Virus record (IMG/VR): IMGVR_UViG_3300021963_000182
Coordinates: 1 to 50,392 of that record
Origin: a virus
Length of the DNA stretch: 50,392 nucleotides
Direction: 5' to 3' (one strand)
Shown: piece after piece, positions 16,507 to 41,394 of the stretch
How positions within the stretch are numbered: the stretch's first letter is position 1
Layout of the letters: each line of letters begins with the position of its first letter
Program-made: the position numbers and the translations under genes
The notes under the pieces: model-generated
The model's database searches: none
What the model saw: only the letters and a program-made list of their open reading frames with translations
Told to the model about the DNA's origin: nothing

Positions 16507-17160
16507 TTAAAAATCTGGATAACCTTTTGTTGCGCCAAATTTATTTCTAGCTACACTATCATTTCTTAAATTAATATCAGTTAATGATCCAATAGATCCA
16601 TTGTTTTCACCTTTTCCTTTTTCGTCACCATCTGATAACGCATTAGGGTTTGTGCTATTATAACCATTTTGATTATTATATGGGTTTCTACTTAAGCTTT
16701 CGGTTCTAGTCTTTATGTCAGTTAGTGACCCGATTTTACCATTATTCTCACCTTTTCCCTTCTCATCATCGTCTGATAATGCATTAGGGTTAGTTACACC
16801 ATAACCTTTGTTTTGAAAGTATGTGTTTTTAGCCATTAGCTCATTTCTGGTTAGTATATCAACAGAAGACCCAATAGTACCATTTTCGCCCTTTCCCTTT
16901 TCATCACCATCTGATAATGCATTAGGGTTTTTTGAATTATATTCATTATTTGAAGAATAAGGGTTTTTAAGTAAATTATTAACTCTAGTTTGAATATCTA
17001 GAGATGAACCAATTGTGGCAGTTTCACCCTTACCTTTTTCGTCACCATTTGATAGTGCATTTTCATGTGTTGTACCATAACCATTTTTTTCAATGTATGA
17101 ATTTCTTGTTAAATGTGCCTGTCTTTCTTTTTCAGCAATAATTTCTAATTGTGTTGCCAT
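16507..17160 (-). CDS. Protein of four 46-47-residue tandem repeats
   Basis: A 217-residue protein made almost wholly of four repeats. Each contains NALSDGDEKGKGE, then IGSxxDIxTR and an NPY or NxY segment; the NALS motif recurs at residues 34, 80, 126 and 173. The spacer varies (Asn/Gly additions) while the acidic-basic DGDEKGKGE core is nearly invariant. No membrane segment or signal. It lies in a cluster of unknown late genes, one base from the WYL-like gene. It could be a structural strand or linker, with each repeat binding one copy of a partner. Not recognised as a named family. Confidence 0.6.
   Translation of the reverse strand: MATQLEIIAEKERQAHLTRNSYIEKNGYGTTHENALSNGDEKGKGETATIGSSLDIQTRVNNLLKNPYSSNNEYNSKNPNALSDGDEKGKGENGTIGSSVDILTRNELMAKNTYFQNKGYGVTNPNALSDDDEKGKGENNGKIGSLTDIKTRTESLSRNPYNNQNGYNSTNPNALSDGDEKGKGENNGSIGSLTDINLRNDSVARNKFGATKGYPDF
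16546..17103 (-). repeat. Tandem repeats of 138-141 bases in coding sequence
   Basis: Four in-frame copies of a 46-47-codon unit. The DNA is less alike than the protein, so the copies are old and kept by selection on the protein. Confidence 0.7.
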
Positions 17161-17162
17161 AT

Positions 17163-17654
17163 TTACATTAATTTTTTAATTCTTTTAATTTGCTCAAATA
17201 AACCGTTCTGTTTTAGTGAGGAAACTGAATTTTCTTCTGAATTTGATTTTAATAAATCAACAGACATTTTATTACTGTGTTTTCTTTCACCTTCTTTTCT
17301 AAATGGATTCTTTCTCAACCCATTCATTCCCGTATTATTATTAATATTATGTGAAGCAAGTTTTTTTGATCTAACTAATTGCCTCTCACCATCTAAAAAA
17401 GTATTAGACCATTTTTCCATTACCTCGCCACCATATAAATTATATCTGGTTTGTTCGGTGTTTTTATCAAGATTCTTGATGTCGTGAATAATTCTTTTTA
17501 ATTGTCCGTAGGTTACTTTTTTATCATTAATCAATTTTTTAGCCCTATCTATTCCAATTACATTTGGATCTTTGATAGTAGAAAGCGTTGAATTAATTTT
17601 ATTTAACACTTCCTCTGGGACATCATAAACGTTATTTTTTAATTGACTATTCAC
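17163..17654 (-). CDS. Hypothetical basic helical protein
   Basis: A 163-residue basic protein (VLNKINSTLSTIKDPNVIG, then AKKLINDKKVTYGQLKRIIH in the N-terminal half; Lys/Arg/Asn-rich later). It overlaps the 260-residue upstream gene by 8 bases and ends 2 bases before the repeat-protein ATG. No domain recognised. The KVTYGQLKRIIHDIKN segment recalls short helical motifs found in several phage structural proteins, but this is weak. Confidence 0.5.
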   Translation of the reverse strand: MNSQLKNNVYDVPEEVLNKINSTLSTIKDPNVIGIDRAKKLINDKKVTYGQLKRIIHDIKNLDKNTEQTRYNLYGGEVMEKWSNTFLDGERQLVRSKKLASHNINNNTGMNGLRKNPFRKEGERKHSNKMSVDLLKSNSEENSVSSLKQNGLFEQIKRIKKLM

Positions 17655-18429
17655 CTTTTAGACGTTTTACTATTTTATCAACCGGAATATTATTTTTTAT
17701 TAAAGTTTTTTTAAGTGAATCTATTTGTTTTAATATTAATGGATTAACGGTTTGTTCATCTTCTTTTTCTAAAACATCCGAATCTTGAGATTTTTTAACC
17801 AAAACGCTTTCAATATAGTCCTGCATGAATTTTTTAGGATTCTCGACCAATCTAACTAAGTCTTTTTGTCCCTCTATATACCCCATCGCGGCTAATCTAT
17901 CTTTAGCTTCATCTTCTGGAAGACCTAAGTCTTTAATAAAGTAGTTATACGCTTCGTCATATGTTTTGTCATCACCCATGGTATTTTCATATCCCAGGGT
18001 ATCATCCATCGCAATTTCTTTTACATCTTCTTTTCCCCCATTTTCTTCATATAGGTTATTAAAATTATTAATTACTGAAGAATATGTTCCGTAAATACTA
18101 TGAGAACCCATCGCCCCACTAGCTGCTTTTACAACTTTATCTGTTCTTTTTTTAGCCCCAACTAAAGATTTTTTAATTTGAGTTGGGATATCACCTCTCT
18201 TAATATTACCCTTTTCATCAACAACTTCTTCAATATCTTCCTCTTTATTTTCTACTTTATCTGGTATTTTTTCAAAATTAGTGTCGCTAGAAAACTCGCT
18301 AGCCCACTTTTTCCACTTTTTCTTTTCTTTTTTAGGTGTACCCTTTTCATTGGCTTTCGCGTAGAAATACCTTTGTTGAGCTTTTGATGCAAACTTCTCT
18401 TCTATCACTTGTTTTATAAAATCGTTCAT
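17647..18429 (-). CDS. Hypothetical phage protein with SKAQQRYFYAKA motif
   Basis: A 260-residue protein. The N-terminus (FASKAQQRYFYAKANEKG, then KKWKKWASEFSSDTNFEKIP) matches a motif found at the N-terminus of many T4-like and marine phage proteins. The middle is acidic (VENKEEDIEEVVDEKGNIKR) and the C-terminal region is helical (LGLPEDEAKDRLAAMGYIEG). The same kind of sequence often belongs to proteins of head or packaging clusters, but function is unknown. It heads the minus-strand operon and has a late octamer 14 bases upstream of its ATG. Confidence 0.6.
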   Translation of the reverse strand: MNDFIKQVIEEKFASKAQQRYFYAKANEKGTPKKEKKKWKKWASEFSSDTNFEKIPDKVENKEEDIEEVVDEKGNIKRGDIPTQIKKSLVGAKKRTDKVVKAASGAMGSHSIYGTYSSVINNFNNLYEENGGKEDVKEIAMDDTLGYENTMGDDKTYDEAYNYFIKDLGLPEDEAKDRLAAMGYIEGQKDLVRLVENPKKFMQDYIESVLVKKSQDSDVLEKEDEQTVNPLILKQIDSLKKTLIKNNIPVDKIVKRLKGE

Positions 18430-18459: not shown

Positions 18460-21400
18460 ATGAAAGATATTTATTTAAATATGAATAGTCAGAATATTTT
18501 AAAGTTTTATGGTACAAGACTGGATGCCACGCTAGATTCGTCAGAATTTTATGATTATGAAATCACAAAAGTCGATAATGACTATGATATTGACGTTTTG
18601 AACCTGTATAAGCCAATAGTTTATGAAAGTTTAAAAATAAATCAGGATTTAACCGATTTACAGTGTCAAAAAAACTTAATTAACCTAACTGAAGACAATA
18701 TTTCAGATTTAATTAGTGGTTATACCTATTCTGGGTTGGCAATGACACTTAACTATAATGATTTTACCAATCATTTTGGTGTTAACTATAAAAACATAAT
18801 ATTAGACTCAAATAGATATAAATTCACATTAATTAATGGGGAAACTCATTATTTTAAAATTGGTTCTTATAATTTAGCCTACCCAGATTCAAACGCTTTA
18901 ACTGGTTATACAAAACCACAATTAATTTCTGGATTTACTACGGATGTTTATAAATCAAGAAAAAACATTACTAATTCAAATGCTTGTTCACCTTTGGCCC
19001 CAATTCAGGTTGTTAAACCATGGGCATATGATTTTAATCAGGGTCAAGGGACAGATAATTGTACACCAACATTGGCAAGAAGAACAGAAAAAGGTTGGAC
19101 ATTGGATTTTATTTTTAATAGAAATAACCTAAGTTGGGCTTCTGGTGGTATATTTTACTATTGGGGTGTAAGGGGTACCAACGATATTTCGGACTATGCT
19201 GATAATAATCTTTCCTTTGGTTTTACTTCTGATGGAAGAATAAAATGGTCCGCTTATCGTTATTCCGGTGCATGTGTAAACGGGGAGTACTCTGAATCAT
19301 ATTATCTGTCTAGTGGACAAACACCAACTTTATGTACAACCGATGCAACTAAGGATTTTAATATTACAATAACTTTTGATAGATATAAACATTACGATCG
19401 TTGTGATATTGAAAATGATGGTGGATTTAATGATATGATAGGGTTTAGGACCTCGCCATATCAAGATATAGAAGTCACCGCAGTAACGTCAACACAATTA
19501 ACTGTTTGGGACCCGGCTGAATCTTTAAGCCAAAAATGGGCAGATGAAAGACAAAGAAGATTAGGGACACTTAAGATATATGTTAATGGTAGACCAATTT
19601 ATAAATTAGAAAATTGGGAGGAGGTTATTCCATCAACAAGAGGAACACAACCATTTATACAATCTTGGGGTGCTGGAACTGGATTAATGAATAATATTCA
19701 TAATGGTGTTTGTTGTTTTAAAATGAAATCAATAAAGTATTATGAGGAACCATTAGACTTCGTTCATGTTAGACATGATTTTTTAAATATATTGGAGCAT
19801 TATGATTTCTACATATGTGGTTTAGATTGTGTTGATGATTTGCGTTCAATAGTAACGCCAACACCAACTAGTACACCTATACCAACATCTACGCCGACCG
19901 CAACACCGGTTCCGCCAACAGCAACGCCAACTAGCACACCAATACCAACATCTACACCAACAAGCGCCCCAACTAGTACACCAGCTCCTACAGCAACAGC
20001 AACTGCAGTACCAACCGCAACTCCGGTTGTTTATTACTATTATTATTTAAGAGATTGTAATCAAACACATAATAAAATAGGTAGAAGTTTAACAAGCGGA
20101 TTAGCTGGAATAACATATAGTGTTGGTAATAGTGTGTGTTATGAGATTGTAGGTATTGATTTGGGGCCAACATTTGATTATGATTTGGATACATTAACAA
20201 TAGTTTCTGATTGTAATAATGTTGTGTGTTTAACTCCAACACCAACAAGTACACCAATACCTACAGCAACTGTTACTGTGGAACCAACGGCGACGCCTAC
20301 ACCTACGAGTACGGAAACCCCTACACCAACGAGTACGGAAACACCAACCCCTACACCTACAGAAAGTAGTACACCTATACCAACATCTACTGAAACGCCA
20401 ACTCCAACACCTACAGAAAGTAGTACTCCTACACCTACTAGTACGGAAACACCAACTCCAACCCCTACACCTGCACCACCAGTTGCTGCTGACCCTACAT
20501 TAGAAATTTGGTATGATTATTCGGATAATTCAACAATATCATTAAATGGGAATGAAATTGTTGCAGTTAATGATAAATCAACGGGTACAGTAAAACCATC
20601 AAACTCTACGGGGATAAAGAGGCCTAAACAGGTTACATCTTATCAAAATGGTTTAAACGTTTCTTATTTTGATGGAGTTAATGATTTATTTACAATAAAC
20701 CCAATTACTAATTTCCAATCATTATCCGGTAATACTATGATTATTGTTGGTAAGTTTAATAATCCGGCGGCTACAAACACAATGGTTCAATTAGGTAGTG
20801 GTGGTGATCAAAGAAATGCAAGTTGGTTAGGAATTACTAATGGAAATTACAGGATTGGGATGGGTCAAGGTTTGGCTACTACATTTGCCACACCTATTGA
20901 AACTAGTTTTCATGTTTTTACTGCAGTTTTTGATGGTACACAAGTAGGTAATAATGATAGATTGAAATTTAGAATAGATGGGCAAGAAAAAGTTTTAACT
21001 TTTAGTCAAAATGTTAGTGGAATTACAAGTTCAGATACAAACGTGTTTTATATTGGTGAAACGGCATCAGCTACTGAAGATTTAGATGGTTACATTGGTG
21101 AAATGTTATTATATACTAAAACATTAAATAATAGCGAAATTGTGAACACTGAAAACTATTTAAAAAATAAATGGGGAATACTAGAACCACCAACACCTAC
21201 GGCGACTCCAACACCTACACCTACTTGTACACCGGCCCCTGTTTCAGGTGAGACATCAACTATGATTTCATATGCCACAAATAATGGAATAAATTATACA
21301 ACAGATTCAAGTGGTATTTTATATGAAATTATAACACAAGGAAGTGGTGGATACCCAACGTTATCATCAACGGTTAATACTAATTATATTGGTAAGTTAA

Positions 21401-21621
21401 TGAATAACACAACATTTGATTCGGGGACAAACGCATCATTTCCATTAAATGCACTAATTCAAGGTTGGCAAATAGGTTTACCACTAATACAAGTTGGGGG
21501 AAGAATTAAATTAATCATACCATCATCATTGGCATATGGTTGTAATGGTGGTGGTAGTATACCATCAAATTCTCCATTGTATTTTGATATTACACTTAAT
21601 AGTGCAAATAATACTGTATAA
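18460..21621 (+). CDS. Modular tail adhesin with FKBP-type prolyl isomerase domain
   Basis: A 1053-residue mosaic protein. Residues about 205-430 look like a LamG/concanavalin-type beta domain ([20 protein letters not shown]). A Thr-Pro-rich linker (465-522) leads to a small Cys-containing domain ([12 protein letters not shown] to SDCNNVVC). A second longer linker (592-677) is followed by another LamG-like domain (678-907; [39 protein letters not shown]). A third linker leads to the C-terminal FKBP domain (about 930-1053): [45 protein letters not shown] and PLYFDITL keep the FKBP active-site Tyr, Phe-Asp, Trp, Tyr and Phe. Likely a virion adhesin with prolyl isomerase activity. Confidence 0.72.
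20335..20478 (+). repeat. 54-base tandem repeat in the Thr-Pro linker
   Basis: Two full and one partial copy of an 18-codon unit ([18 protein letters not shown]), starting at 20335, 20389 and 20443. Shorter Thr-Pro repeats extend over 20233-20490 and 19852-20025. The unit number could change by slippage or recombination and alter linker length. Confidence 0.75.
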
Positions 21622-21625
21622 TTAA

Positions 21626-21633
21626 TATTTATA
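21626..21633 (+). promoter_or_regulatory. Late-promoter-like octamer TATTTATA
   Basis: TATTTATA inside the 16-base gap after the adhesin stop, 4 bases before the ATG at 21638. Confidence 0.5.
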
Positions 21634-21637
21634 ACAT

Positions 21638-22006
21638 ATGGAATTTTTTATAAGACAAGGTGCAACTGACCCGATATTAAAACTCAGATTAATTGATGAT
21701 GGAAAGAATGATAAATCATCGTTAAACGATTTATTGGAAAATTCTGACATAACGTTTGAAATGTATGACCACAAAACCGGTGAACCATATGTTTTAAATG
21801 CACAATGTCTTTTAACTACCAGAAACAAAAAATATAATCAGACAACACTAGAATATTACATAACATACAGATTTACAGAGTATCAAACCTCTAAAACGGG
21901 TAAGTTTGAAGGTAAAATTAATGTTCAATTCCTGGACACAAACTCATACCCAACAACAAAATTAATTCTCCCTATACGAGAAAAATTATATATCAATATT
22001 ATTTAG
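21638..22006 (+). CDS. Small BppU N-terminal-like beta protein
   Basis: A 122-residue protein: MEFFIRQGATDPILKLRLID, then DITFEMYDHKTGEPYVLNAQ, and FEGKINVQFLDTNSYPTTK. This strand order resembles the Ig-like N-terminal domain of baseplate upper proteins (BppU) and other phage modules that anchor adhesins to the baseplate. It lies 16 bases after the adhesin gene, which suggests it helps attach that protein. Structural similarity is inferred from sequence pattern only; no catalytic site is expected. Confidence 0.55.
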   Translation: MEFFIRQGATDPILKLRLIDDGKNDKSSLNDLLENSDITFEMYDHKTGEPYVLNAQCLLTTRNKKYNQTTLEYYITYRFTEYQTSKTGKFEGKINVQFLDTNSYPTTKLILPIREKLYINII

Positions 22007-22103: not shown

Positions 22104-25010
22104 ATGCAAGAGATTATTTCTCAAGAGGTTATCGAAACCTTCTTGAACGGGTCTGACCCCGAAAGATTCATTGTCGGTGTTGAATATGACTACCGAAAGA
22201 ATAAAATTTACAAAATTATACAACACCCAGAAAGAGGTAAAATTGTCCTTGAGGATACTTTTACACCATTTCTTTGGGCCGGAGACTTATCTGGATTTAA
22301 CTTCTATAATGGAAGCAAGGAATTACAGAAAAAGAAAATGGGGCAATATGGTATATTAAGTACCAAGCTTGAAACCATGGGTAATGATAGATTAGAGGCC
22401 GGATTAAAATATCTAGTTAAGAGTACTAATGGTTATCAATCTCTAATAGCATTTTTTAAAGATGGTGGGATTGATCCTTGGGGTGAAGATTTCAAATCTC
22501 AATTTCAAATATTGTCACCAGCTGAACAGTATTTGGTTCAGAAAAAAAAGAGATTATTTAAGGGTATTGAAGATTATTCTGAAGTACATCGACTTGTATT
22601 TGACATTGAGACAACTGGTTTAGATCCGGAGACAACTAATATCATTCTAATCGGAGTTAAAGATAATAGAGGTTATAGCAAGTTATTAAACGCATATGGT
22701 GAAGATGGTGAGAAAAGATGTATTGAAGAGTTTTTTAAAATAATAAAAGAATTAAAACCAAGTATTATTGGTGGATATAATTCTGCTGCGTTTGACTTAC
22801 CATTTATTTTAAAGAGAGCTGAGATTTTGGGTTTGAATATAAATAAATTAACTAAAATACTAAACGACAATCCACTTAGAATAAAAGAGGGTAAATTAAA
22901 GTTAGCAAACGAAGTTGAACCATATACGCAATATGTGTTGTGGGGGTTTAATATTGTCGATATTGCTCATGCTGTTAGAAGAGCACAAGCGATTAATTCT
23001 GAAATTAAAAGCTGGGGATTAAAATATATTACAAAATATCTAGAGAAAGAAAAAGAAAATCGTGTGTACGTTGATGGTGCATTTATTTCTAAAATATATC
23101 TCGATAATGAAAGTTATTATGTAAATCCTAAAACAGGAGGTTATAAGAAAATTGGGGATTTAGGGACTGATGGTTTATTAGAAAAATACCCCGGTAAATT
23201 TGAAATATGGCCAGGTCAAAGAATTGTTGAACAATATCTTGATGATGACTTATATGAAACAATGGTTGTTGATGATTCATTTAGTCAATCAACATTTTTA
23301 TTATCTAAAGTAATTCCAACAACATATGAGAGAATATCAACAATGGGTACCGCAACTCTCTGGAAGATATTAATGCTTGCATGGTCTTATGATAATAATT
23401 TGGCAATACCACTTAAAGACGAAAAGAGACCAATTACTGGTGGATTATCTCGTTTACTAAACGTTGGTTTTTCAAAAAATATTGTGAAGTTTGACTATGC
23501 ATCACTTTATCCATCAATACAACTTGTATATGATGTTTTCCCTGAATGTGATGTAATGGGTGTTCAGAAATCTATGTTAAAATATTTTCGTAACATTCGT
23601 ATTAAATATAAACTTCTTGCTGGTGAATTAAAGAATAGCAATCCGGTTTTATCCGAGATGTATGATCGAAAGCAATTACCAATTAAGATTTTTATAAACG
23701 CATATTTTGGTTCGTTATCAGCACCACATGTTTTTCCTTGGGGTGATATGGATATGGGTGAAACAATTACATGTGTTGGTCGCCAGTGTTTACGAATGAT
23801 GATTATGTTTTTTCAAAGTAAAAATTATAAACCACTTGTTATGGATACAGATGGTGTGAACTTTGAAACACCTGAAGATATTAATGATCACAAATATGTT
23901 GGTAAGGGGCTTAATGAAATGGTTCAAGAAGGTAAAGAATATTATGGTGTTGAGGCTGATACTGCAGAATTCAATGATCTGTTTATGAGAAATGAAATGG
24001 GATTGGATATTGATTATATGGCACCAGCATGTATTAATCTTTCTAGAAAAAATTATATCATTAAAATAATTAAGAAAGGAAAAGAAAAAATAAAACTAAC
24101 AGGTAATACTATAAAATCTAAAAGACTTCAGCAGTTTGTTGTTGAATTCTTAGATGAGGGGTTAGTAAAATTACTTAATGGAGATGGTCAAGATTTTTTA
24201 AACTTATATTATTCAACCATCAAAAAATTATATAATAAAGAAATACCATTAGCTAAGATCGCTAGTAAGGCTCGTGTTAAACAAAGTGCGGATGATTATA
24301 AAAAACATTGTAAGAAAACAACCAAGTCAGGTTCTACAATGTCTCGTCAAGCGCATATGGAATTAATATTAGAAAATAATTACCACGCAACATTGGGTGA
24401 AACAATTTATTACATAAATAATGGTTCTAAAAAAGGTGATGGTGATGTTAAGAAAATAACAAAACCAACGAAAAAAGAGAAAGAAGATTATTTGCTTAAA
24501 TATGGTAATGAAATACCAAAAGATTATATTCAAGTGAATTGTTACATGATTCCAGAAAAAGAATTGGTTAATAATCCTGATATGACTGGAGAGTATAATG
24601 TTGCTAGAAATATTACTACATTTAATAAGAGAATTGAACCACTTTTGGTTGTATTTAAACCTGAAATTAGAGATAGTATTTTAATTGAAGACCCAATTGA
24701 CGAACAACAATTCACAAAAAAACAATGTGAATTAGTTTCTGGGTTTCCACTTAAAGAAGGTGGCCAAGATAGTTTAGATGAGGTAATGACATTATCAGAT
24801 GGCGAGGTTTTATTTTGGAATAAAGTAAATAAAGACCCTTTCTTTATGTATGTTGAAGATAGTTTAAATATTGTAGATCAAAAATGGGTCGATTATAATA
24901 GAAAGGTTGTTTCATTTCAAGCAGAAAGTGTTAAAGATCTTAAAGATGAAGAAATCATTGAGAATAATGGACATGATTATGCATATCACGCTTCTATACC
25001 TATGGATTAA
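22104..25010 (+). CDS. 43: DNA polymerase, family B (gp43-like)
   Basis: A 968-residue replicative polymerase with proofreading exonuclease. Exo I is VFDIETTG with D167 and E169, Exo II is IIGGYNSAAFDLP. Motif A is FDYASLYPS (D464), motif B is DRKQLPIKIFINAYFGS, and motif C is MDTDGVNF with D581 and D583; the last has Gly where Ser is usual (DTDS). It is about 70 residues longer than T4 gp43. The gene has a host-type promoter and a leader hairpin rather than a late octamer, in line with early or middle expression. Its 3' end overlaps the convergent neck gene by 4 bases. No intein or split is seen. Confidence 0.95.
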   Translation: MQEIISQEVIETFLNGSDPERFIVGVEYDYRKNKIYKIIQHPERGKIVLEDTFTPFLWAGDLSGFNFYNGSKELQKKKMGQYGILSTKLETMGNDRLEAGLKYLVKSTNGYQSLIAFFKDGGIDPWGEDFKSQFQILSPAEQYLVQKKKRLFKGIEDYSEVHRLVFDIETTGLDPETTNIILIGVKDNRGYSKLLNAYGEDGEKRCIEEFFKIIKELKPSIIGGYNSAAFDLPFILKRAEILGLNINKLTKILNDNPLRIKEGKLKLANEVEPYTQYVLWGFNIVDIAHAVRRAQAINSEIKSWGLKYITKYLEKEKENRVYVDGAFISKIYLDNESYYVNPKTGGYKKIGDLGTDGLLEKYPGKFEIWPGQRIVEQYLDDDLYETMVVDDSFSQSTFLLSKVIPTTYERISTMGTATLWKILMLAWSYDNNLAIPLKDEKRPITGGLSRLLNVGFSKNIVKFDYASLYPSIQLVYDVFPECDVMGVQKSMLKYFRNIRIKYKLLAGELKNSNPVLSEMYDRKQLPIKIFINAYFGSLSAPHVFPWGDMDMGETITCVGRQCLRMMIMFFQSKNYKPLVMDTDGVNFETPEDINDHKYVGKGLNEMVQEGKEYYGVEADTAEFNDLFMRNEMGLDIDYMAPACINLSRKNYIIKIIKKGKEKIKLTGNTIKSKRLQQFVVEFLDEGLVKLLNGDGQDFLNLYYSTIKKLYNKEIPLAKIASKARVKQSADDYKKHCKKTTKSGSTMSRQAHMELILENNYHATLGETIYYINNGSKKGDGDVKKITKPTKKEKEDYLLKYGNEIPKDYIQVNCYMIPEKELVNNPDMTGEYNVARNITTFNKRIEPLLVVFKPEIRDSILIEDPIDEQQFTKKQCELVSGFPLKEGGQDSLDEVMTLSDGEVLFWNKVNKDPFFMYVEDSLNIVDQKWVDYNRKVVSFQAESVKDLKDEEIIENNGHDYAYHASIPMD

Positions 25011-29999: not shown

Positions 30000-32840
30000 A
30001 TGGCAGCAAATTCAAACAGAGTATTCGTGTCTCCAGGTGTGTACACATCAGAGAAGGATCTAACATTCGTAGCGCAAAGCGTTGGAGTTACAACATTGGG
30101 TCTAGTAGGTGAGACTATAAAAGGTCCCGCTTTCGAACCAATATTGATTTCTAATTTCGACGAATTTAAAACATATTTTGGCACAACCAGCCCGGTAAAA
30201 TACGGAGATGGTAACCCTAAATATGAACTTCCGTATGTCGCTAAATCATATTTACAAGAATCAAATCAATTATTTGTAACTAGAGTTTTAGGATTAACTG
30301 GTTACAAACCAGGTAAAACTTATGGTATCCAGACATTGGGTAGCGTAACAGTAGACTTAACAAGTACACCAACAACAAGTGGTAGTACGTTGACTCCAAC
30401 TTCTTTAACAACAATAACAGGTTCAACATTTTATGCTGAACTTTCAGGTAAAACATCAACAGAAGGAACATCAATTACTGATTATTTGATTGCTGGTTCA
30501 AATTCTAATGGTGCATATGCTATTAACGAATGGTTTACAATCGGTACGGTACCAGCATCTGCAACAAGTGGATTAACTGGAACTCAATTATTATCACCTA
30601 TTGGGAATGCTAACAAGAACTGGTATAACAATTACTTTGTAAAAAGTGGTGCTACCGATTCAACAATCCACGGTGTTTATTCTTACTTATTTGTTTTAAC
30701 AGGCGCCACATCATTTAGCGTTACTAGATACAAATATTCAGCAGCATTAAATACTGATTATCATGGAAGAACTGTATGTTTATTAAGATCAAGAGGTTCA
30801 TACATATCAAATGCCCTTGTACATAGAGTAACTGGCTCAACAGCCGTTCAAATTACTGGTGCAACAATAGATACAAATCCATTATCAGAATTTAACTTAA
30901 ATGTTACCGATATCGCATCGATTGCACATAGTTTTGACTGTTCATTTGATATATCTTCTTCAAAATATATAACTAAGATTCTTGGTACTGATGTATTTGA
31001 TAAAGAAAAAAATGAATATCCAGTTTATGTACATGAAGTTTATCCAAACTTAATCAATAATCTATTTGAACAGGGTCTTATTAGAGGCTTAAGCACAGAT
31101 GAACAGGTTTTAACAGAAGGTGACAACTTTGTTACACAATGGGATATGGCTGGTTCATCAACTGTTGTTTCTGAGGTTAGAGGTGGAAAGGTTTTTGATT
31201 TATTCAACTTCCTAACGGTATCCGATGGTGATAATTCTAACTATGAAGTTAAAATAACAATTGCAAATATTGATCTTGACACTGCAGAATTTGATGTTCT
31301 TGTTCGTGATTTTAACGATACTGATGCTAACCAAGTAGTTTTAGAAAAATACACTAGATGTACAATGAATCCAGATTTACCAGGTTTTATCGGTAGAAAA
31401 ATAGGTACATCAGATGGTGAATATGAATTAAGATCTAAATATATTATGCTTGTTTTAGCTAGTGAATATCCAACCGATGCAATACCAGCTGGTTTCAAGG
31501 GATTAACAACAAGATCTGAAATTGGTGAAGTTCTTTTTAAAACAAAATATTATGATGCAGGTGATGTATTATATTATGATGCTAGCGGAAATGCAAACAC
31601 AACAAATGGTGATAAAGTTAAAAAAGTAACTTTAGGATTTTCAACAGACAATCATTTTGAATATGATAGAGACATGTTGAAGTTTAAAAGTAGCAATGCT
31701 GCTGGTGCAACATTTGGTTTTCACTTATCAGTAAACGCTGCAACAATTACAGGTACAACTGGTCATAAACTTTTCAAAACAACAGCATATGACTTAGAAG
31801 GTGTTGTTAAAGGTAAATTAGCCACAACTCCATACAGAAAGTTCACAATGCCAGTATTTGGTGGTTTTGATGGTTGGGACATTTACAGAAACACAAGAAC
31901 AAATGGTGATGGATATATCTTTGGTAAATCAACATATGTAAGTGGTCACACTGGTAACGGTGGTGTATTCAGCAGTACTGTTGGAAACTCAGATTATTAT
32001 GCTTTTTTACAAGGTATCGAAACATATGCAAATCCTGAAGCTGTGGATATTAACATATTTGCAACACCAGGTATTGATTGGAATAATCATAGTTCATTAG
32101 TTAATCAAGCGATTGACATCATTGAAAACGATAGAGCTGATTCATTATACATTATCAACTCACCTAACTATACAACTTCTGATGAAACAATTTCATCTTT
32201 AGATGATTTAGGAATTGATAGTAACTATTCTGCAACATACTGGCCTTGGATTCAAGTAAGAGATACAGATAACGCAACACAACTTTTCATACCACCAACA
32301 GGTGAAGTATTGAAGAACATTGCTTTGACTGATAACGTTTCTTATCCTTGGTTCGCAGTCGCTGGTTATTCAAGAGGTCTAGTTAATGCAATCAAAGCAC
32401 AAAAGAAACTTACTCTTGACGAGAGAGATGATCTTTACAAAGCTAGAATTAACCCAATCGCAACATTCTCTGATACAGGTACCATTATATGGGGTAACAA
32501 AACGTTACAAGTTAGAGAATCTGCTTTAGATAGAATCAACGTAAGAAGATTGTTATTGAGAGCTAGAAAGTTAATCTCTGCAGTCGCTATAAGATTGTTA
32601 TTTGAACAAAATGACGAACAAGTTAGACAAGAATTCTTAAGATTGGTTAACCCAATTCTTGAGTCAATTAAGAAAGAAAGAGGTTTATATGACTTCCGTG
32701 TAAGTGTTTCAAATGATCCAGAGGATATTGATGCAAATACATTAAGAGGTAAAATATACATCAAACCAACGAGATCATTGGAATTCATCGATGTTGAATT
32801 CGTAATTACTCCAACGGGTGCTTCTTTTGAAAATATCTAA
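30000..32840 (+). CDS. 18: Tail sheath protein (gp18-like)
   Basis: A 946-residue contractile sheath protein. The N-terminus (RVFVSPGVYTSEKDLTFVAQ, then TTLGLVGETIKGPAFEPILI and YFG) and the C-terminal domain (NVRRLLLRARKLISAVAIRL, RLVNPILESIKKERGLYDF and KIYIKPTRSLEFIDVEFVIT) are typical of T4-type sheath. It is much longer than T4 gp18 (659 residues); the extra residues are in the middle, rich in Thr/Ser/Gly/Asn (about 115-480), as surface insertions. The sheath contracts to drive the tube through the host envelope. It has an octamer upstream and a strong terminator 20 bases after the stop, as for a highly expressed gene. Confidence 0.93.
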   Translation: MAANSNRVFVSPGVYTSEKDLTFVAQSVGVTTLGLVGETIKGPAFEPILISNFDEFKTYFGTTSPVKYGDGNPKYELPYVAKSYLQESNQLFVTRVLGLTGYKPGKTYGIQTLGSVTVDLTSTPTTSGSTLTPTSLTTITGSTFYAELSGKTSTEGTSITDYLIAGSNSNGAYAINEWFTIGTVPASATSGLTGTQLLSPIGNANKNWYNNYFVKSGATDSTIHGVYSYLFVLTGATSFSVTRYKYSAALNTDYHGRTVCLLRSRGSYISNALVHRVTGSTAVQITGATIDTNPLSEFNLNVTDIASIAHSFDCSFDISSSKYITKILGTDVFDKEKNEYPVYVHEVYPNLINNLFEQGLIRGLSTDEQVLTEGDNFVTQWDMAGSSTVVSEVRGGKVFDLFNFLTVSDGDNSNYEVKITIANIDLDTAEFDVLVRDFNDTDANQVVLEKYTRCTMNPDLPGFIGRKIGTSDGEYELRSKYIMLVLASEYPTDAIPAGFKGLTTRSEIGEVLFKTKYYDAGDVLYYDASGNANTTNGDKVKKVTLGFSTDNHFEYDRDMLKFKSSNAAGATFGFHLSVNAATITGTTGHKLFKTTAYDLEGVVKGKLATTPYRKFTMPVFGGFDGWDIYRNTRTNGDGYIFGKSTYVSGHTGNGGVFSSTVGNSDYYAFLQGIETYANPEAVDINIFATPGIDWNNHSSLVNQAIDIIENDRADSLYIINSPNYTTSDETISSLDDLGIDSNYSATYWPWIQVRDTDNATQLFIPPTGEVLKNIALTDNVSYPWFAVAGYSRGLVNAIKAQKKLTLDERDDLYKARINPIATFSDTGTIIWGNKTLQVRESALDRINVRRLLLRARKLISAVAIRLLFEQNDEQVRQEFLRLVNPILESIKKERGLYDFRVSVSNDPEDIDANTLRGKIYIKPTRSLEFIDVEFVITPTGASFENI

Positions 32841-33762: not shown

Positions 33763-34503
33763 ATGGATAATATTAACCCAATGGTATCATATGATGTGGT
33801 ATCTCTTCCATCTCAAGGAGTTCATTATGAGGATGGTAGAAAAACATTAAGAGTAGCTTATTTAACTGCTGCGGATGAAAACATATTAACATCACCTAAT
33901 TTACTTCAAACAGATACAGTAATAGACGAATTACTTAAAAGAAAAATATTAGACAAAGAATTGAATATCGAAGAATTGGTAGATGAGGATAGACAAGCTA
34001 TATTAATATTTTTAAGAAATACAGCATTTGGTACAGAATATACAATTGATTTAACAGATCCGGTAACTAAAAATACATTTGAAGCAAAAGTGGATTTATC
34101 TGTTTTAAAAACAAAAGAATTTAAATTAATTGCAGATTCAAATGGTGAATATGAATTTTTTTTACCTGTAACAAAAAAGAAAATAACATTCAAGTTCTTG
34201 TCAAATAAACAAGAAAACGAATTAAAACTAATTAAAGAAACAAGTAAAGATGTTATTGTTCCTCTTAATACCAAAAGATTAGAAATGATGATTAGATCTG
34301 TTGATGGTAATAGAGATCAAATGGGGATATACCAATTTATACAATCTTTACCAATCAAGGATTCTCAAGATTTTAAAAGATTTGTTTCAGAAAATAAACC
34401 AGGTCTCGACCTAATTGTTGAAGTAATAGCCCCGTCAGGAGAAAAAGTCCCAGTTTTGGTTGACTTTGGGGTTGACTTTTTTCGTCCCTTCTATGGCATA
34501 TAA
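33763..34503 (+). CDS. Baseplate/tail assembly chaperone, gp26-like
   Basis: A 246-residue protein. YDVVSLPSQGVHYEDGRKTL followed by VAYLTAADENILTSPNLLQ is the pattern of the T4_baseplate family (gp26-like: an LPS-G segment, then a strand and helix). The rest is a mixed alpha/beta domain (TIDLTDPVTKNTFEAKVDLS, LSNKQENELKLIKET). In T4-like phages it takes part in hub assembly, and homologues upstream of tape measure genes act as tail assembly chaperones. It overlaps the next small gene by 11 bases. Confidence 0.6.
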   Translation: MDNINPMVSYDVVSLPSQGVHYEDGRKTLRVAYLTAADENILTSPNLLQTDTVIDELLKRKILDKELNIEELVDEDRQAILIFLRNTAFGTEYTIDLTDPVTKNTFEAKVDLSVLKTKEFKLIADSNGEYEFFLPVTKKKITFKFLSNKQENELKLIKETSKDVIVPLNTKRLEMMIRSVDGNRDQMGIYQFIQSLPIKDSQDFKRFVSENKPGLDLIVEVIAPSGEKVPVLVDFGVDFFRPFYGI

Positions 34504-36621: not shown

Positions 36622-39600
36622 ATGCCAAGTTACTTAGATTTTGATGCAACAAAAGGTTTTAGAAATGAACTACTATCTAAAACTTTAAATGCGCCTAATG
36701 GTCCTCAGACTTTTAGTAGTAGTAACTATCCTATTCAAAGAACAAACAGTTTTCCAAATAAAGATCAGGGTGATGTAATATTAAACCAACAAACATCTAG
36801 AGACGCACAAATAATATCTACTGGAACAAGTAATAGATTTGCACCAGAAAATGGTGATTATGTTGTTGTTGAGGATGTTAGGAATATAGTATCAATAGAT
36901 AATGTTGGTATATATCCATATTTTCCAATTAATAGTGGTATTTTAGGTAGAGGTTTGATAGGTGCGTTAGATTCTAAAAATTATGAATTTGAATCTAAAT
37001 TAGCAAAGTTTGCTAACTATCATATTTCTGAAAGTCCAGATGGACCAGTTCAAGCAAGAATTAGACAAAATTTACAAACCGCAACACTTGGTAGAGTTAG
37101 AGGACTTGATGCGTTAAGTGGTAATTTATCAACTGCTGTTAATTTATTTACCGGTAAAGAAAAATTAATTGAAAGAAATTATAAGATTACCGTTGCTAAA
37201 ACATTAGCTGGTAAAGCAATTGATTTTGTTCAAACAATTGCAGGTGTTGAATTTCCTTTTTCAGAAATTCCTGGTGATTATTTAAGTAATCCTGCTAATC
37301 CTACAATTAATAGACCGGTACCTAAAACAGAATTTGGAAAAATATTTCAAGATGCAACTGGCGCACTTGGATCTTTATTAGGAATTCAAAGAAGACCAAA
37401 ATTAAGTAGAAAGCCATCAGATTTAATGATTGAATATCTGAGTGATGGCCAAAAAGGTATATTATATAATAATTTATCTTTTTCAACATATGCGCCAAAC
37501 TACACACTATCTGCTAGATCACAAAATTCTAGTAAAATATTTAACTTTATTGATAGAGTAGCCTCTGGTATTAATAATATTATTGGTTTAGAAGCTCCGG
37601 CAGGTAAAGCATATATTGGTGACGATAGAGGTAATGATGTCAGAGACACAATAGCCGATTTTAATGGTAACAAAACAAGAAGCCCCTATTATCTTTCTTT
37701 ATTGTTTGATGAAACCGCAACTCGTTTATTTCATAAAGAAAAAAATATTTCAGAAAGAGGTGCGATACCTGGAAAACTAACTTGGTATAGTACTAACAGT
37801 AAAAATAAATTGGGTTATGGTAATTTAGAATACCAAAGTGAAAGTTCAGTATTTGAAGAAACATTATCAACGAAACATACATTTAGAGATGATTCTATTT
37901 TAGGTAAAACACAAGAATTATTAAATTCATTACCTAAAGATGGTGGACAATCAAGATCACACGTCGCTAATGTTATTGATCAAACAAGTAGAATATTCAG
38001 AGAAGGTGATACACTTTTATCTAGAGGGTCTGCAATAAAATATATCGATAAATCTACCGGCAAAGAAGACGGTACGGAATATTGTAGAGTATGGACCAAA
38101 GATAGGGCATACATGAACTATTCCGATACAATGAAAAGAACAGGTTTAATAAGAAAAGTTGAAGACAGTGTTTTATCAACACCATGGAACTTGAATATTG
38201 CACCAATGTCAAATGGTAACGGATCGTTTGATAAAAGTTCAACTAACATCGATGCGGTTGCAGGTAAAGTTAAAAAATACATGTTTTCTCTTGAAAATTT
38301 ATCATGGAAAACATCAAACAAGTTTGGTTATACATATGATGACTTACCATATTGCGAAAGAGGTCCAAACGGTGGCCGTGTTATGTGGTTTCCACCATAT
38401 GACTTAAAGGTTAACGAAACAAATAGTGCAAACTGGGATAAAAATAATTTTTTAGGAAGACCAGAACCAATTTATACATATCAAAATACAGAGAGAAGTG
38501 GTACAGTATCCTTTAAAGTAATTGTTGATCATCCAAGTATTTTAAATTTATTAATAAAAGAGATAACTGATGAGCAGGCGGAAGAATATTTGAATTCAGT
38601 ATTTGCTGGATGTCAAGATATTGATTTTTATACGTTAGTTAGAAAATATACAACATTAGATAGATCTGACTTAGAATTAGTACAAGCGTATATTGATTAT
38701 TATAAAAATAAAAATACATTTGATATATTAGATTCAATAGAATTTAGAAATATTGCTGGTGATGTAACAACAACACCCGGTACAACAACACCTGGAACAG
38801 GTCCTAGTGAAAGTTCTAATCCAGCATTAAATTATAATGGGATTTTATTTTTTCCAAATGATATTCCATTTCCACAAGACGATTTATATGCTAGCGAAGA
38901 TTACGGACAAATTTACTCTGGATACACAAAACAAGAAACAAAAAATATTTTCAATTCAACACTCAATACAGAATTAACTAAGATTTTAACTGTTAATACA
39001 ACAAATAATAAATCAGATAGAAATACTATATATGGTAGTGAAGCACCAACAGGAACAACAGCATCTTTAGTTACTAGAACACAGGGTCAAATAACTACAG
39101 CATTTCAGTTGTTAGAAAATAACTATAGTTCTTTAACGGCAACTTTAACTGAAATAAAAGCCGAACTTACTAAAAACAATTTAAAAAATATTGATATTAG
39201 AATTGAGTCATCAACATCATTTGTTGCTGATGAAAAATATAATATTAAATTATCTTACAGAAGATCTGATAGTGTAATTAAACATATTTTAAAAACACTT
39301 TCAAAAAACAATGATGTACCAGCAAACGTTTCAAAATACTGGACTAAAACTAAAAGCGAACTTGAATCTAAACCTTCTGAAGTTAAAGAAGACTTAACAA
39401 TAAAATTAAAAGACTTAGGTTATGGTGAAGATATTGTTGGTGATATTAATATATCATTTACAAATAAAGGAGAAAATGCAACCAGAACAGGTCCAGAAGG
39501 GTATGATTGTCATAAACAAGAGATAAAAAATACTGGAGGTTTAAAGAAATATACACCAGTTACATTTTATTGTAGATCTGTTGATATTAAACTTCAAGCA

Positions 39601-41394
39601 TATCCTAAACCAACACAAATACCTGCTAAACCAGGAACAGCAATACCAGGTAAATCTGTTATTGGCCCTCCAACAACCGAGATTTTTGTTAATAAAATTA
39701 AACAGAATAAAAAACCACCATTAGATGTGGTTAAAAAACTTATAATGAAGACATTATCTGAATGTTTTTATTTTAAGAAGCTAGAAGAAACCGATCCTGT
39801 TGTTTTTAATTCTCTTAAACAAAAATTTAGATATTTTCATCCTGCGTTTCACTCAATGACACCAGAAGGATTAAATGCTAGACTAACATTCTTACAACAA
39901 TGTATCAGACCCGGTGATACTATACCAATTAAAGGATTAAATGCCGAAAGCAATGGTAATGTTGTTGACGCAAGAAATACAACCTTTGGCCCACCACCGG
40001 TTTGTGTTTTAAGGATAGGGGATTTTTATCATTCAAAAATAGTTATTACAAATCTTAATATTACATTTGAAAATTCAACATGGGATTTAAATCCTGAGGG
40101 TATCGGAGTTCAACCAATGATAGCAGATGTTACATTACAGATAAACTTTATTGGTGGTCAAGGTATTAAAGAACCAGTTGCAAAACTACAAAATGCGCTA
40201 AGCTCTAACTTCTATGCAAATACAGAAATATATGACTATAGAGCAGATTCAACGGTTAATCAATCAGACCTTCAAGCATTCAATCTTGATTTCTTAGAGA
40301 AAATTGCTAATAAAGTTGAAACCCCAAAGAATACTGGTCTTGATGTTTCACAAAATCCTAAGAAAGAAGGAAAGTATGTTGGTACATTAACTGATAAGAT
40401 GACGTACAAAGAAAATAGAGATAAACTATTAGCGGCAACAAATAATTACTTTGATAAATTCAAAGACACTTACAATAAGTTACTGACATCATATGGTAAT
40501 GAAATGCTACCATTGTTTATTTCACCAACATATAGAGTAACAAATCAGTTGGAGATACAAGATACTATTGGTTCAACATCATCAATTACTTTACTTGGTA
40601 ACTATCTTAAAACTAGAGATTTTGTAAATTTACATGGTCGATTAGTAACAAAATTATTAGAAAAGGTTTCCTCTTCTGATCATAATATAGTTTTAGATTT
40701 AGGTATAGATTCAGGATCTACTAAGTATGAGAGATCAAGAACAATTATTGATTCATATATTAAAAAAACGGTTACTGATTTTTTAAACTCAATTAGAGAT
40801 GAAAAATTAATACAAGATCTTGAAACAAATAGAAACACATTAATTGAATTAATTGATGGGTTTAATTTTGTTATGGAAACGGCTGGTAAAGATGCAAGGA
40901 TAGATAAAGAAGTTATTAGTGTTGTGACATTAACAGATTTTGATCACCAAAAATTTTATGCGCAATATAGCGATGCTGTTAATTTAATTAAAGATAAACA
41001 TTCAATGTTTACATCTGATTTAAATTCAAGTGTGGATTTTGCAGACCCTTCTTTTACAGATGATTTATATGATAAAATATTAGCTTTTATAATTAAAAAT
41101 AAAGTAACTAATATTATTAAGGAGTATGAAAATTCACCAGATAATAAATTATTTGATAAAAATGCAATAAACAAAATAGAAAGAAGATTAAATAAATTTA
41201 TTAAAAAAGCAACAGATATTGACGAAAAGAAATTTAAATATAAAAAGGTAGAAAATAAAAAAGATTTTAAACCATACGCAGCAACTCTTACCGGTTCAAT
41301 AACAGGATCTCAAGAAGAGAAAATAAAAAATGTGCATAGTTTAAAAGATAATTCAACAGAATCTAAATTAAACTTTTCTAAAGTAATTAAGTAA
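36622..41394 (+). CDS. Giant baseplate protein with OmpA-like domain
   Basis: A 1590-residue protein. Residues about 585-640 (RVMWFPPYDLKVNETNSANW, GRPEPIYTYQNTERSGTVSF) match a family of large tail-tip or baseplate proteins, followed by a Thr-Pro-Gly linker near 716-732. Residues about 820-900 contain IDIRIESSTSFVADEKYNIK and LSYRRSDSVIKHIL, the signature of the OmpA C-terminal peptidoglycan-binding fold (YNxxLSxRRA), with both Arg kept but the binding Asp changed. Later, PEGLNARLTFLQQCIRPGDT (from about 1079) and VCVLRIGDFYHSKIVI (about 1127) form a conserved tube-initiator-like domain. It starts a late operon with gp53-like and the 1921-residue protein. Confidence 0.65.
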   Translation: MPSYLDFDATKGFRNELLSKTLNAPNGPQTFSSSNYPIQRTNSFPNKDQGDVILNQQTSRDAQIISTGTSNRFAPENGDYVVVEDVRNIVSIDNVGIYPYFPINSGILGRGLIGALDSKNYEFESKLAKFANYHISESPDGPVQARIRQNLQTATLGRVRGLDALSGNLSTAVNLFTGKEKLIERNYKITVAKTLAGKAIDFVQTIAGVEFPFSEIPGDYLSNPANPTINRPVPKTEFGKIFQDATGALGSLLGIQRRPKLSRKPSDLMIEYLSDGQKGILYNNLSFSTYAPNYTLSARSQNSSKIFNFIDRVASGINNIIGLEAPAGKAYIGDDRGNDVRDTIADFNGNKTRSPYYLSLLFDETATRLFHKEKNISERGAIPGKLTWYSTNSKNKLGYGNLEYQSESSVFEETLSTKHTFRDDSILGKTQELLNSLPKDGGQSRSHVANVIDQTSRIFREGDTLLSRGSAIKYIDKSTGKEDGTEYCRVWTKDRAYMNYSDTMKRTGLIRKVEDSVLSTPWNLNIAPMSNGNGSFDKSSTNIDAVAGKVKKYMFSLENLSWKTSNKFGYTYDDLPYCERGPNGGRVMWFPPYDLKVNETNSANWDKNNFLGRPEPIYTYQNTERSGTVSFKVIVDHPSILNLLIKEITDEQAEEYLNSVFAGCQDIDFYTLVRKYTTLDRSDLELVQAYIDYYKNKNTFDILDSIEFRNIAGDVTTTPGTTTPGTGPSESSNPALNYNGILFFPNDIPFPQDDLYASEDYGQIYSGYTKQETKNIFNSTLNTELTKILTVNTTNNKSDRNTIYGSEAPTGTTASLVTRTQGQITTAFQLLENNYSSLTATLTEIKAELTKNNLKNIDIRIESSTSFVADEKYNIKLSYRRSDSVIKHILKTLSKNNDVPANVSKYWTKTKSELESKPSEVKEDLTIKLKDLGYGEDIVGDINISFTNKGENATRTGPEGYDCHKQEIKNTGGLKKYTPVTFYCRSVDIKLQAYPKPTQIPAKPGTAIPGKSVIGPPTTEIFVNKIKQNKKPPLDVVKKLIMKTLSECFYFKKLEETDPVVFNSLKQKFRYFHPAFHSMTPEGLNARLTFLQQCIRPGDTIPIKGLNAESNGNVVDARNTTFGPPPVCVLRIGDFYHSKIVITNLNITFENSTWDLNPEGIGVQPMIADVTLQINFIGGQGIKEPVAKLQNALSSNFYANTEIYDYRADSTVNQSDLQAFNLDFLEKIANKVETPKNTGLDVSQNPKKEGKYVGTLTDKMTYKENRDKLLAATNNYFDKFKDTYNKLLTSYGNEMLPLFISPTYRVTNQLEIQDTIGSTSSITLLGNYLKTRDFVNLHGRLVTKLLEKVSSSDHNIVLDLGIDSGSTKYERSRTIIDSYIKKTVTDFLNSIRDEKLIQDLETNRNTLIELIDGFNFVMETAGKDARIDKEVISVVTLTDFDHQKFYAQYSDAVNLIKDKHSMFTSDLNSSVDFADPSFTDDLYDKILAFIIKNKVTNIIKEYENSPDNKLFDKNAINKIERRLNKFIKKATDIDEKKFKYKKVENKKDFKPYAATLTGSITGSQEEKIKNVHSLKDNSTESKLNFSKVIK

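Follow-up and report, generated by a model that had tools for sequence, protein, structure and literature searches.

An FKBP domain of Bacteroidota lipoprotein ancestry at the C-terminus of a modular, adhesin-like phage protein

The gene considered here encodes a putative phage adhesin whose last module is an FKBP-type prolyl isomerase, and the relationships of this module lead to the lipoproteins of Bacteroidota. The gene resides in a 50-kb virus record which was analysed at its full length of 50,392 nucleotides, called the window in the following. The preliminary description of this DNA had proposed that an FKBP prolyl isomerase is fused to a phage adhesin with Thr-Pro linkers. This is indeed what we find: a complete FKBP domain forms the end of an adhesin-like phage protein which consists of several domains connected by Thr-Pro linkers. 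The fusion is in frame and free of breaks, and in an alignment all relatives with an intact start begin at the position of its ATG. Neither FKBPs nor modular phage adhesins are novel in themselves, but an FKBP which derives from a Bacteroidota lipoprotein and forms the last module of such an adhesin appears to be new. The features of the locus and of neighbouring genes are compiled in Table 1.

Table 1. Features of the adhesin locus and of marker genes in the window (residue numbers, aa, refer to the 1053-aa protein).
Feature	Position	Strand	Remarks
Divergent conserved gene	17647..18429	-	Constant boundary of the variable locus on its left
Modular adhesin-like ORF with C-terminal FKBP	18460..21621	+	Unbroken 1053-aa frame; start conserved in relatives
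Conserved N-terminal part (aa 1-461)	18460..19842	+	Common to 11 IMG/VR relatives
Thr-Pro linker 1 (aa 463-524)	19846..20031	+	Proteins of close relatives terminate within the equivalent linker
Small Cys-containing module YYYYYLRDC... (aa ~526-587)	20035..20220	+	Also in L018 and L016, elsewhere positioned
Thr-Pro linker 2 (aa 588-677)	20221..20490	+	phrog_15511 match
LamG-like (concanavalin A-like) domain (aa ~679-906)	20494..21177	+	Laminin_G_3, phrog_10356, L022 ORF, Foldseek BFVD
Thr-Pro linker 3 (aa 907-929)	21178..21246	+	End overlaps the lipoprotein-derived segment at Cys923
FKBP segment (aa 923-1053)	21226..21618	+	Pfam core aa 967-1046
Cys923 codon, upstream member of conserved cysteine pair	21226..21228	+	Offset as in L027, L092, L093, L094, L097
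Cys1028 codon, second of cysteine pair, directly after AYG	21541..21543	+	
Conserved 122-aa gene which immediately follows the adhesin locus in relatives	21638..22006	+	75-87% DNA identity; homology resumes at 21618-21638
Family B DNA polymerase	22104..25010	+	Fixed right-hand marker of the variable locus
Contractile tail sheath	30000..32840	+	phrog_23 E=3e-65
Baseplate hub	33763..34503	+	phrog_150 E=3.5e-8

Pfam FKBP_C (PF00254) recognizes the core of the C-terminal domain with an E-value of 3e-17 and 63.1 bits, the cut-off being 21.1. In the PDB the best phmmer match is FkpA (2e-19); the PPI of the T9SS translocon is matched at 1.3e-18. The FKBP motifs FD, GW, AYG, and FD are present without exception (4/4). 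AlphaFold was used to model residues 679-1053, with an input alignment which included locus-derived FKBPs, and the pLDDT across the FKBP part is about 92-98. With this model Foldseek returns FKBPs at E-values around 1e-12. The closest full-length fold is that of the T9SS PPI (6h3i/6h3j chain B) with a TM-score of 0.90-0.92, referred to the target length, and an rmsd of 1.0-1.1 over 123-124 columns. The profile match and the fold thus agree with the earlier claim that the C-terminal ~125 residues form an FKBP with the above motifs. The homologous segment is somewhat longer, i.e., ~131 aa, and begins within Thr-Pro linker 3. Structure prediction had been suggested as a check at the outset; it yielded the FKBP fold. 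In the pocket, with positions numbered as in FKBP12, the residues are kept at 10 of the 10 positions checked (Y26, F36, D37, F46, L at V55, I56, W59, Y82, I91, and F99). At the same time the domain departs from the family majority at 44 of 104 columns. It probably still is an active isomerase, although perhaps only incidentally so. A chance FKBP match was considered and rejected by the E-value and the fold; a frame artefact was rejected as the ORF has no break.

When 395 Bacteroidota genomes were searched with a query of 125 residues, identity to the FKBPs reached up to 63%, over query residues 2-121, and the closest Bacteroidota lipoproteins share 62-63% identity with the phage domain. These nearest bacterial FKBPs are proteins of ~156 aa with a signal peptide and a lipobox-like sequence at their N-termini. 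The similarity runs upstream of the FKBP core, up to a cysteine just ahead of it. In the phage protein this is Cys923 (TPTCTPAPV, in linker 3), located 29 residues before the SG motif exactly as is the second cysteine of the lipoproteins. Among the distinct bacterial members the upstream cysteine is found in all of those with a cysteine after AYG (8/8) vs. 6 of the 52 without (Fisher p=1e-6, kinship not corrected). This co-occurrence suggests a disulfide between Cys923 and Cys1028. In two trees the phage FKBP nests among the Bacteroidota lipoprotein FKBPs, apart from other viral FKBPs; these trees are based on few columns, have moderate support (86-97), and draw on a bacterial sampling which was seeded with, and is biased toward, window-like sequences. 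Neither a signal peptide nor a lipobox is present in the phage FKBP; a Thr-Pro linker takes their place. Taken at the level of sequence, these comparisons show a capture from a Bacteroidota lipoprotein, comprising the folded part from the second conserved cysteine to the C-terminus, joined at a Thr-Pro linker. The donors may have been exposed at the cell surface, but only some of the lipoproteins of this type bear acidic residues behind their lipobox cysteine. In a Flammeovirgaceae bin three FKBP lipoprotein genes follow one another (L028:1023-2866), which suggests that envelope FKBPs expanded in tandem in Bacteroidota.

What precedes the FKBP is of modular design. Three Thr-Pro-rich linkers had been reported ahead of the FKBP, and all three were located (Table 1). 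In these, 35 of the 50 prolines are preceded by Thr. Two LamG-like domains had also been claimed, and here the outcome is divided. The second one is probable: although its Pfam Laminin_G_3 score is near-threshold (25.4 bits, cut-off 27.6), it matches phrog_10356, a virion structural protein in PHROG, it is 72% identical to an ORF of a phage relative (L022, 4584-5687), and Foldseek searches of BFVD lead to ConA-like phage proteins. In the putative first domain no Pfam match was found. Residues 180-390 resemble ConA/galectin-like folds with a Z of about 5 (5.3) in a poor AlphaFold model (pLDDT 39), which hints weakly at a ConA/LamG-like fold. A recognised virion-attachment domain was not found in the N-terminal part. 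The small YYYYYLRDC module occurs in the window (20035-20220), in L016 (8909-9162), and in L018 (7479-7914), i.e., it travels from one adhesin ORF to another within this group of phages.

The N-terminal part of the adhesin is encoded on 11 IMG/VR contigs, with the same gene order in those which were inspected. Identity over residues 1-461 amounts to 83-89% for eight relatives and 54-56% for three. In seven relatives (L008, L009, L010, and L012-L015, all 83-89% identical) the protein has a length of 490-492 aa and breaks off within a short Thr-Pro tail. The adhesin of L011 runs off its contig, those of L016 and L017 end at 489 aa, and that of L018 goes on to 1221 aa with other modules. The latter protein (L018:6001-9666) has a run of about nine short NDLxYxLIP-type repeats among its modules. 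An FKBP is encoded in none of the records of these relatives (0/11), including the 251-kb record of L015. Absence from related adhesins together with a frame break had been named as findings which would speak against the fusion. The absence is real and the break is not, and the absence marks the FKBP as an accessory module, as read from these genomes, and not as an error.

DNA homology to L008 is 90.6% up to position 19841 and resumes with 86.5% at 21626, five bases past the stop codon. Because of this interruption the ~1.8 kb in between is, by alignment, a replaceable cassette. The same interval contains other Thr-Pro-linked ORFs or modules in L016, L018, and L022. L016 and L018 both have the YYYYY module, L022 has the LamG module in an ORF of its own, and the adhesin of L018 is adjoined by a collagen-type tail-fibre ORF. 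To judge from these arrangements the region is a hypervariable adhesin locus in which modules are shuffled with the Thr-Pro repeats serving as joints. Prophage or host contamination was rejected, since syntenic phage genes are positioned on either side. A 217-aa protein encoded at 16507-17160 (-) has about four repeats of ~50 aa which contain NALSDGDEKGKGE; it is conserved in the relatives inspected.

The 0.4 kb which encode linker 3 and the FKBP have no phage relative in the collections searched, as would be expected if phage and Bacteroidota DNA had been joined in an assembly chimera. This is hardly credible. Two exact fusions no more than 0.4 kb apart would be required, and one of these would have to preserve the frame. 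Phage homology is present on both flanks and resumes right after the stop codon, the GC content of 31% equals that of the phage, the reading frame continues exactly across the junction, and the conserved downstream gene follows the stop codon. Another reading is that recombination at the linkers acquired a stable domain which is passive or transient cargo, adding length or solubility and having no specific role. The single occurrence of the domain, its absence from all 11 records of relatives, and the lack of any adhesin-fused FKBP in IMG/VR by homology or motif scans, which have limited sensitivity, are compatible with this. We nevertheless regard it as unlikely, as the pocket residues and the cysteine pair are all kept despite ~38% divergence from the nearest relative and the GC content already matches that of the phage. 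For these reasons the FKBP can hardly be a very recent, unselected arrival.

A further proposal of the preliminary description was that the FKBP folds or stiffens the protein's own Pro-rich linkers. This is disfavoured because relatives carry such Thr-Pro linkers, while no FKBP is encoded in any of the 11 records searched. FKBPs prefer bulky hydrophobic residues before Pro, and with this known preference the many linker prolines which follow Thr also count against the proposal. In a broader version the FKBP would be a built-in folding helper for the protein's own modules, acting, e.g., on cis-prolines of the LamG domain, much as fused SlyD does for recombinant tail fibres. SlyD, itself an FKBP, has been used as a fusion partner for soluble phage and pyocin fibres (PMC9569702; PMC6116203), and the intact pocket of the phage domain would fit such a task. 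Several observations make folding in cis rather improbable. The FKBP is translated last; the records of the relatives which share the N-terminal part and the linkers have no FKBP; the L022 locus with its related LamG shows none either; and the Thr-Pro linkers, with their Thr-preceded prolines, require no fold.

As to the phage itself, which is a large one, the encoded contractile tail sheath identifies it as a myovirus, on the strength of its gene content. The host is probably a member of Bacteroidota because of the ancestry of the FKBP and the distant similarity of the family B DNA polymerase to those of Salinibacter phages, its best matches. The protein combines a conserved proximal part with a modular, variable distal part in a setting of structural genes. 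From this context we infer that it may be exposed on the virion as an adhesin of the tail or the baseplate. A 1590-aa protein of the tail region (window 36622-41394, +) contains an OmpA-like, i.e., peptidoglycan-binding, stretch at residues 840-891 with a sub-threshold score of 20.6 bits (cut-off 27.2).

The reading which we prefer, and which we hold tentatively, is that the FKBP is a host-derived, terminal surface-recognition module, captured from a prolyl isomerase lipoprotein of Bacteroidota. Attachment to tail or baseplate would presumably be the task of the conserved N-terminal part; the linkers would be spacers, and the exchangeable distal domains would come into contact with the cell surface. 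The FKBP would then be the outermost head of the adhesin and would work outside the host cell. Having been adapted earlier to envelope proteins of Bacteroidota, it may bind surface-exposed prolyl segments or the docking surfaces used by host PPI lipoproteins, and such binding could help the phage to hold or to choose its host. Some host PPI lipoproteins are located extracellularly on BAM (PMC12611786, PMC12578637). In favour of a recognition head we count the variable modular locus, the Bacteroidota ancestry, the intact pocket, and the setting with tail sheath, baseplate hub, and the collagen-type fibre of L018; against it count the single instance of the fusion and an N-terminal part with a poor model (pLDDT 39) and no recognised virion-attachment domain. 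A more specific variant is mimicry: by displaying a copy of a host surface PPI lipoprotein the phage might bring its tail to the docking site of that lipoprotein, e.g., on BAM, on the T9SS translocon, or on another machine of the outer membrane. We give this variant little credence. If it were true, essential or near-essential BAM/T9SS complexes would be phage receptors in Bacteroidota.

Alternatively, catalysis and not binding could be what matters. The FKBP would then operate a prolyl switch at adsorption, in a surface or envelope protein of the host, or in a phage protein during penetration. A precedent is the PPIase FkpA, which is required to activate imported colicin M, the refolding of the latter being blocked by FK506 (PMC2615193); the fd prolyl timer is a likeness, and the phage domain retains all pocket residues checked. 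We consider such an envelope-acting isomerase doubtful, as the PPI of the T9SS translocon is without known function (PMC10994853) and the relatives presumably infect without an FKBP.

A comparison with known systems places the recognition head preferred here in context. Bacteroidota lipoprotein FKBPs of ~156 aa (L092, L093, L094) share 54-63% identity with the phage domain over the whole folded part, as well as the cysteine pair and the intact pocket. Yet these lipoproteins consist of a single, lipid-anchored domain equipped with a signal peptide and a lipobox, whereas the phage FKBP ends a 1053-aa protein and possesses neither. BamJ (NCBIfam NF053689) is the closest Bacteroidota-specific named family. 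In the BAM complex of Bacteroidota this PPI lipoprotein occupies a place in the extracellular dome, and it has been inferred to be a surface lipoprotein (PMC12578637); together with BamM, a second lipoprotein of PPI fold, it is described as a surface lipoprotein in the extracellular part of BAM (PMC12578637; PMC12611786). The match to BamJ reaches the C-terminus of the phage FKBP, but with 73.2 bits it remains below the curated cut-off of 100, and the phage domain is without a lipid anchor. Because of this score the phage FKBP is classified as BamJ-like and not as a BamJ, a likeness of sequence. For the T9SS translocon, in which a PPI is a subunit (PMC10994853), the resemblance is one of fold only: the PPI from Flavobacterium johnsoniae is the closest full-length structure, yet its sequence is only 44% identical and belongs to another branch of the family. 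FkpA/Mip-type FKBPs have the active-site pattern in common with the phage domain, and FkpA is its top phmmer match; in contrast, the phage domain has no dimerisation domain, and its FD-GW loop is shorter than that of FkpA. Finally, modular adhesins of Bacteroidota phages with Ig, BACON, and PKD modules (PMC13370021) are similar in their exchangeable modules and likely Bacteroidota hosts. Theirs, however, are Ig-like binding modules, and an isomerase is not mentioned.

Is the fusion known elsewhere? We scanned 2.9 million IMG/VR contigs for a fixed-spacing DNA motif encoding GW...G...P..[AG]YG, an approach which misses FKBPs departing from the motif and thus has limited sensitivity. It returned 22 stretches, i.e., one chance match (L073) and 21 FKBPs of 112-233 aa, none of them on a linker or adhesin. 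A second motif scan of viral contigs added nothing further. Homology searches of viral sequences found no relatives with the FKBP alone, none with an alignment of the nearest subfamily, and only stand-alone FKBPs with a mixed FKBP alignment. In INPHARED the readable matches were FKBPs which stand alone, and several of these came from contigs which are bacterial although they are filed as phage; the N-terminal part had no relative there. Comparison of the model with BFVD structures gave only ConA-like or unnamed matches and no FKBP. The phage literature which was searched mentions FKBPs in two roles only, as host factors and, in the case of SlyD, as a fusion partner at the bench.

The shuffling of binding modules is a known trait of phage adhesins; a host folding enzyme at the tip of an adhesin was not found in the phage collections and literature searched. 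Should the FKBP bind to the host surface or have its action there, this would indicate a class of receptors, namely prolyl segments or the outer-membrane machines served by PPI lipoproteins. In that case inhibitors of the FK506 type and pocket mutants could test prolyl isomerisation in phage adsorption. The FKBP adhesin would likewise provide an outside handle on the surface PPIs of Bacteroidota; for one of these at least, the T9SS PPI, no function is known.

The viral searches brought up two further FKBP settings. A 113-kb IMG/VR contig encodes a viral FKBP fusion (L072:288-989, -) in which PF00254 matches residues 137-230 with an E-value of 1.8e-33 behind an N-terminal domain of ~120 aa. By eye the latter resembles a MazG-type pyrophosphohydrolase; Pfam names the FKBP alone. 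A huge phage (L002; LR756504.1, 636 kb) has a stand-alone FKBP of 199 aa with an N-terminal extension reminiscent of FkpA/Mip. Its gene adjoins an adenylate-kinase-like gene, and IMG/VR has the same FKBP gene twice, on contigs with lengths of 348 kb and 268 kb (L079, L083).
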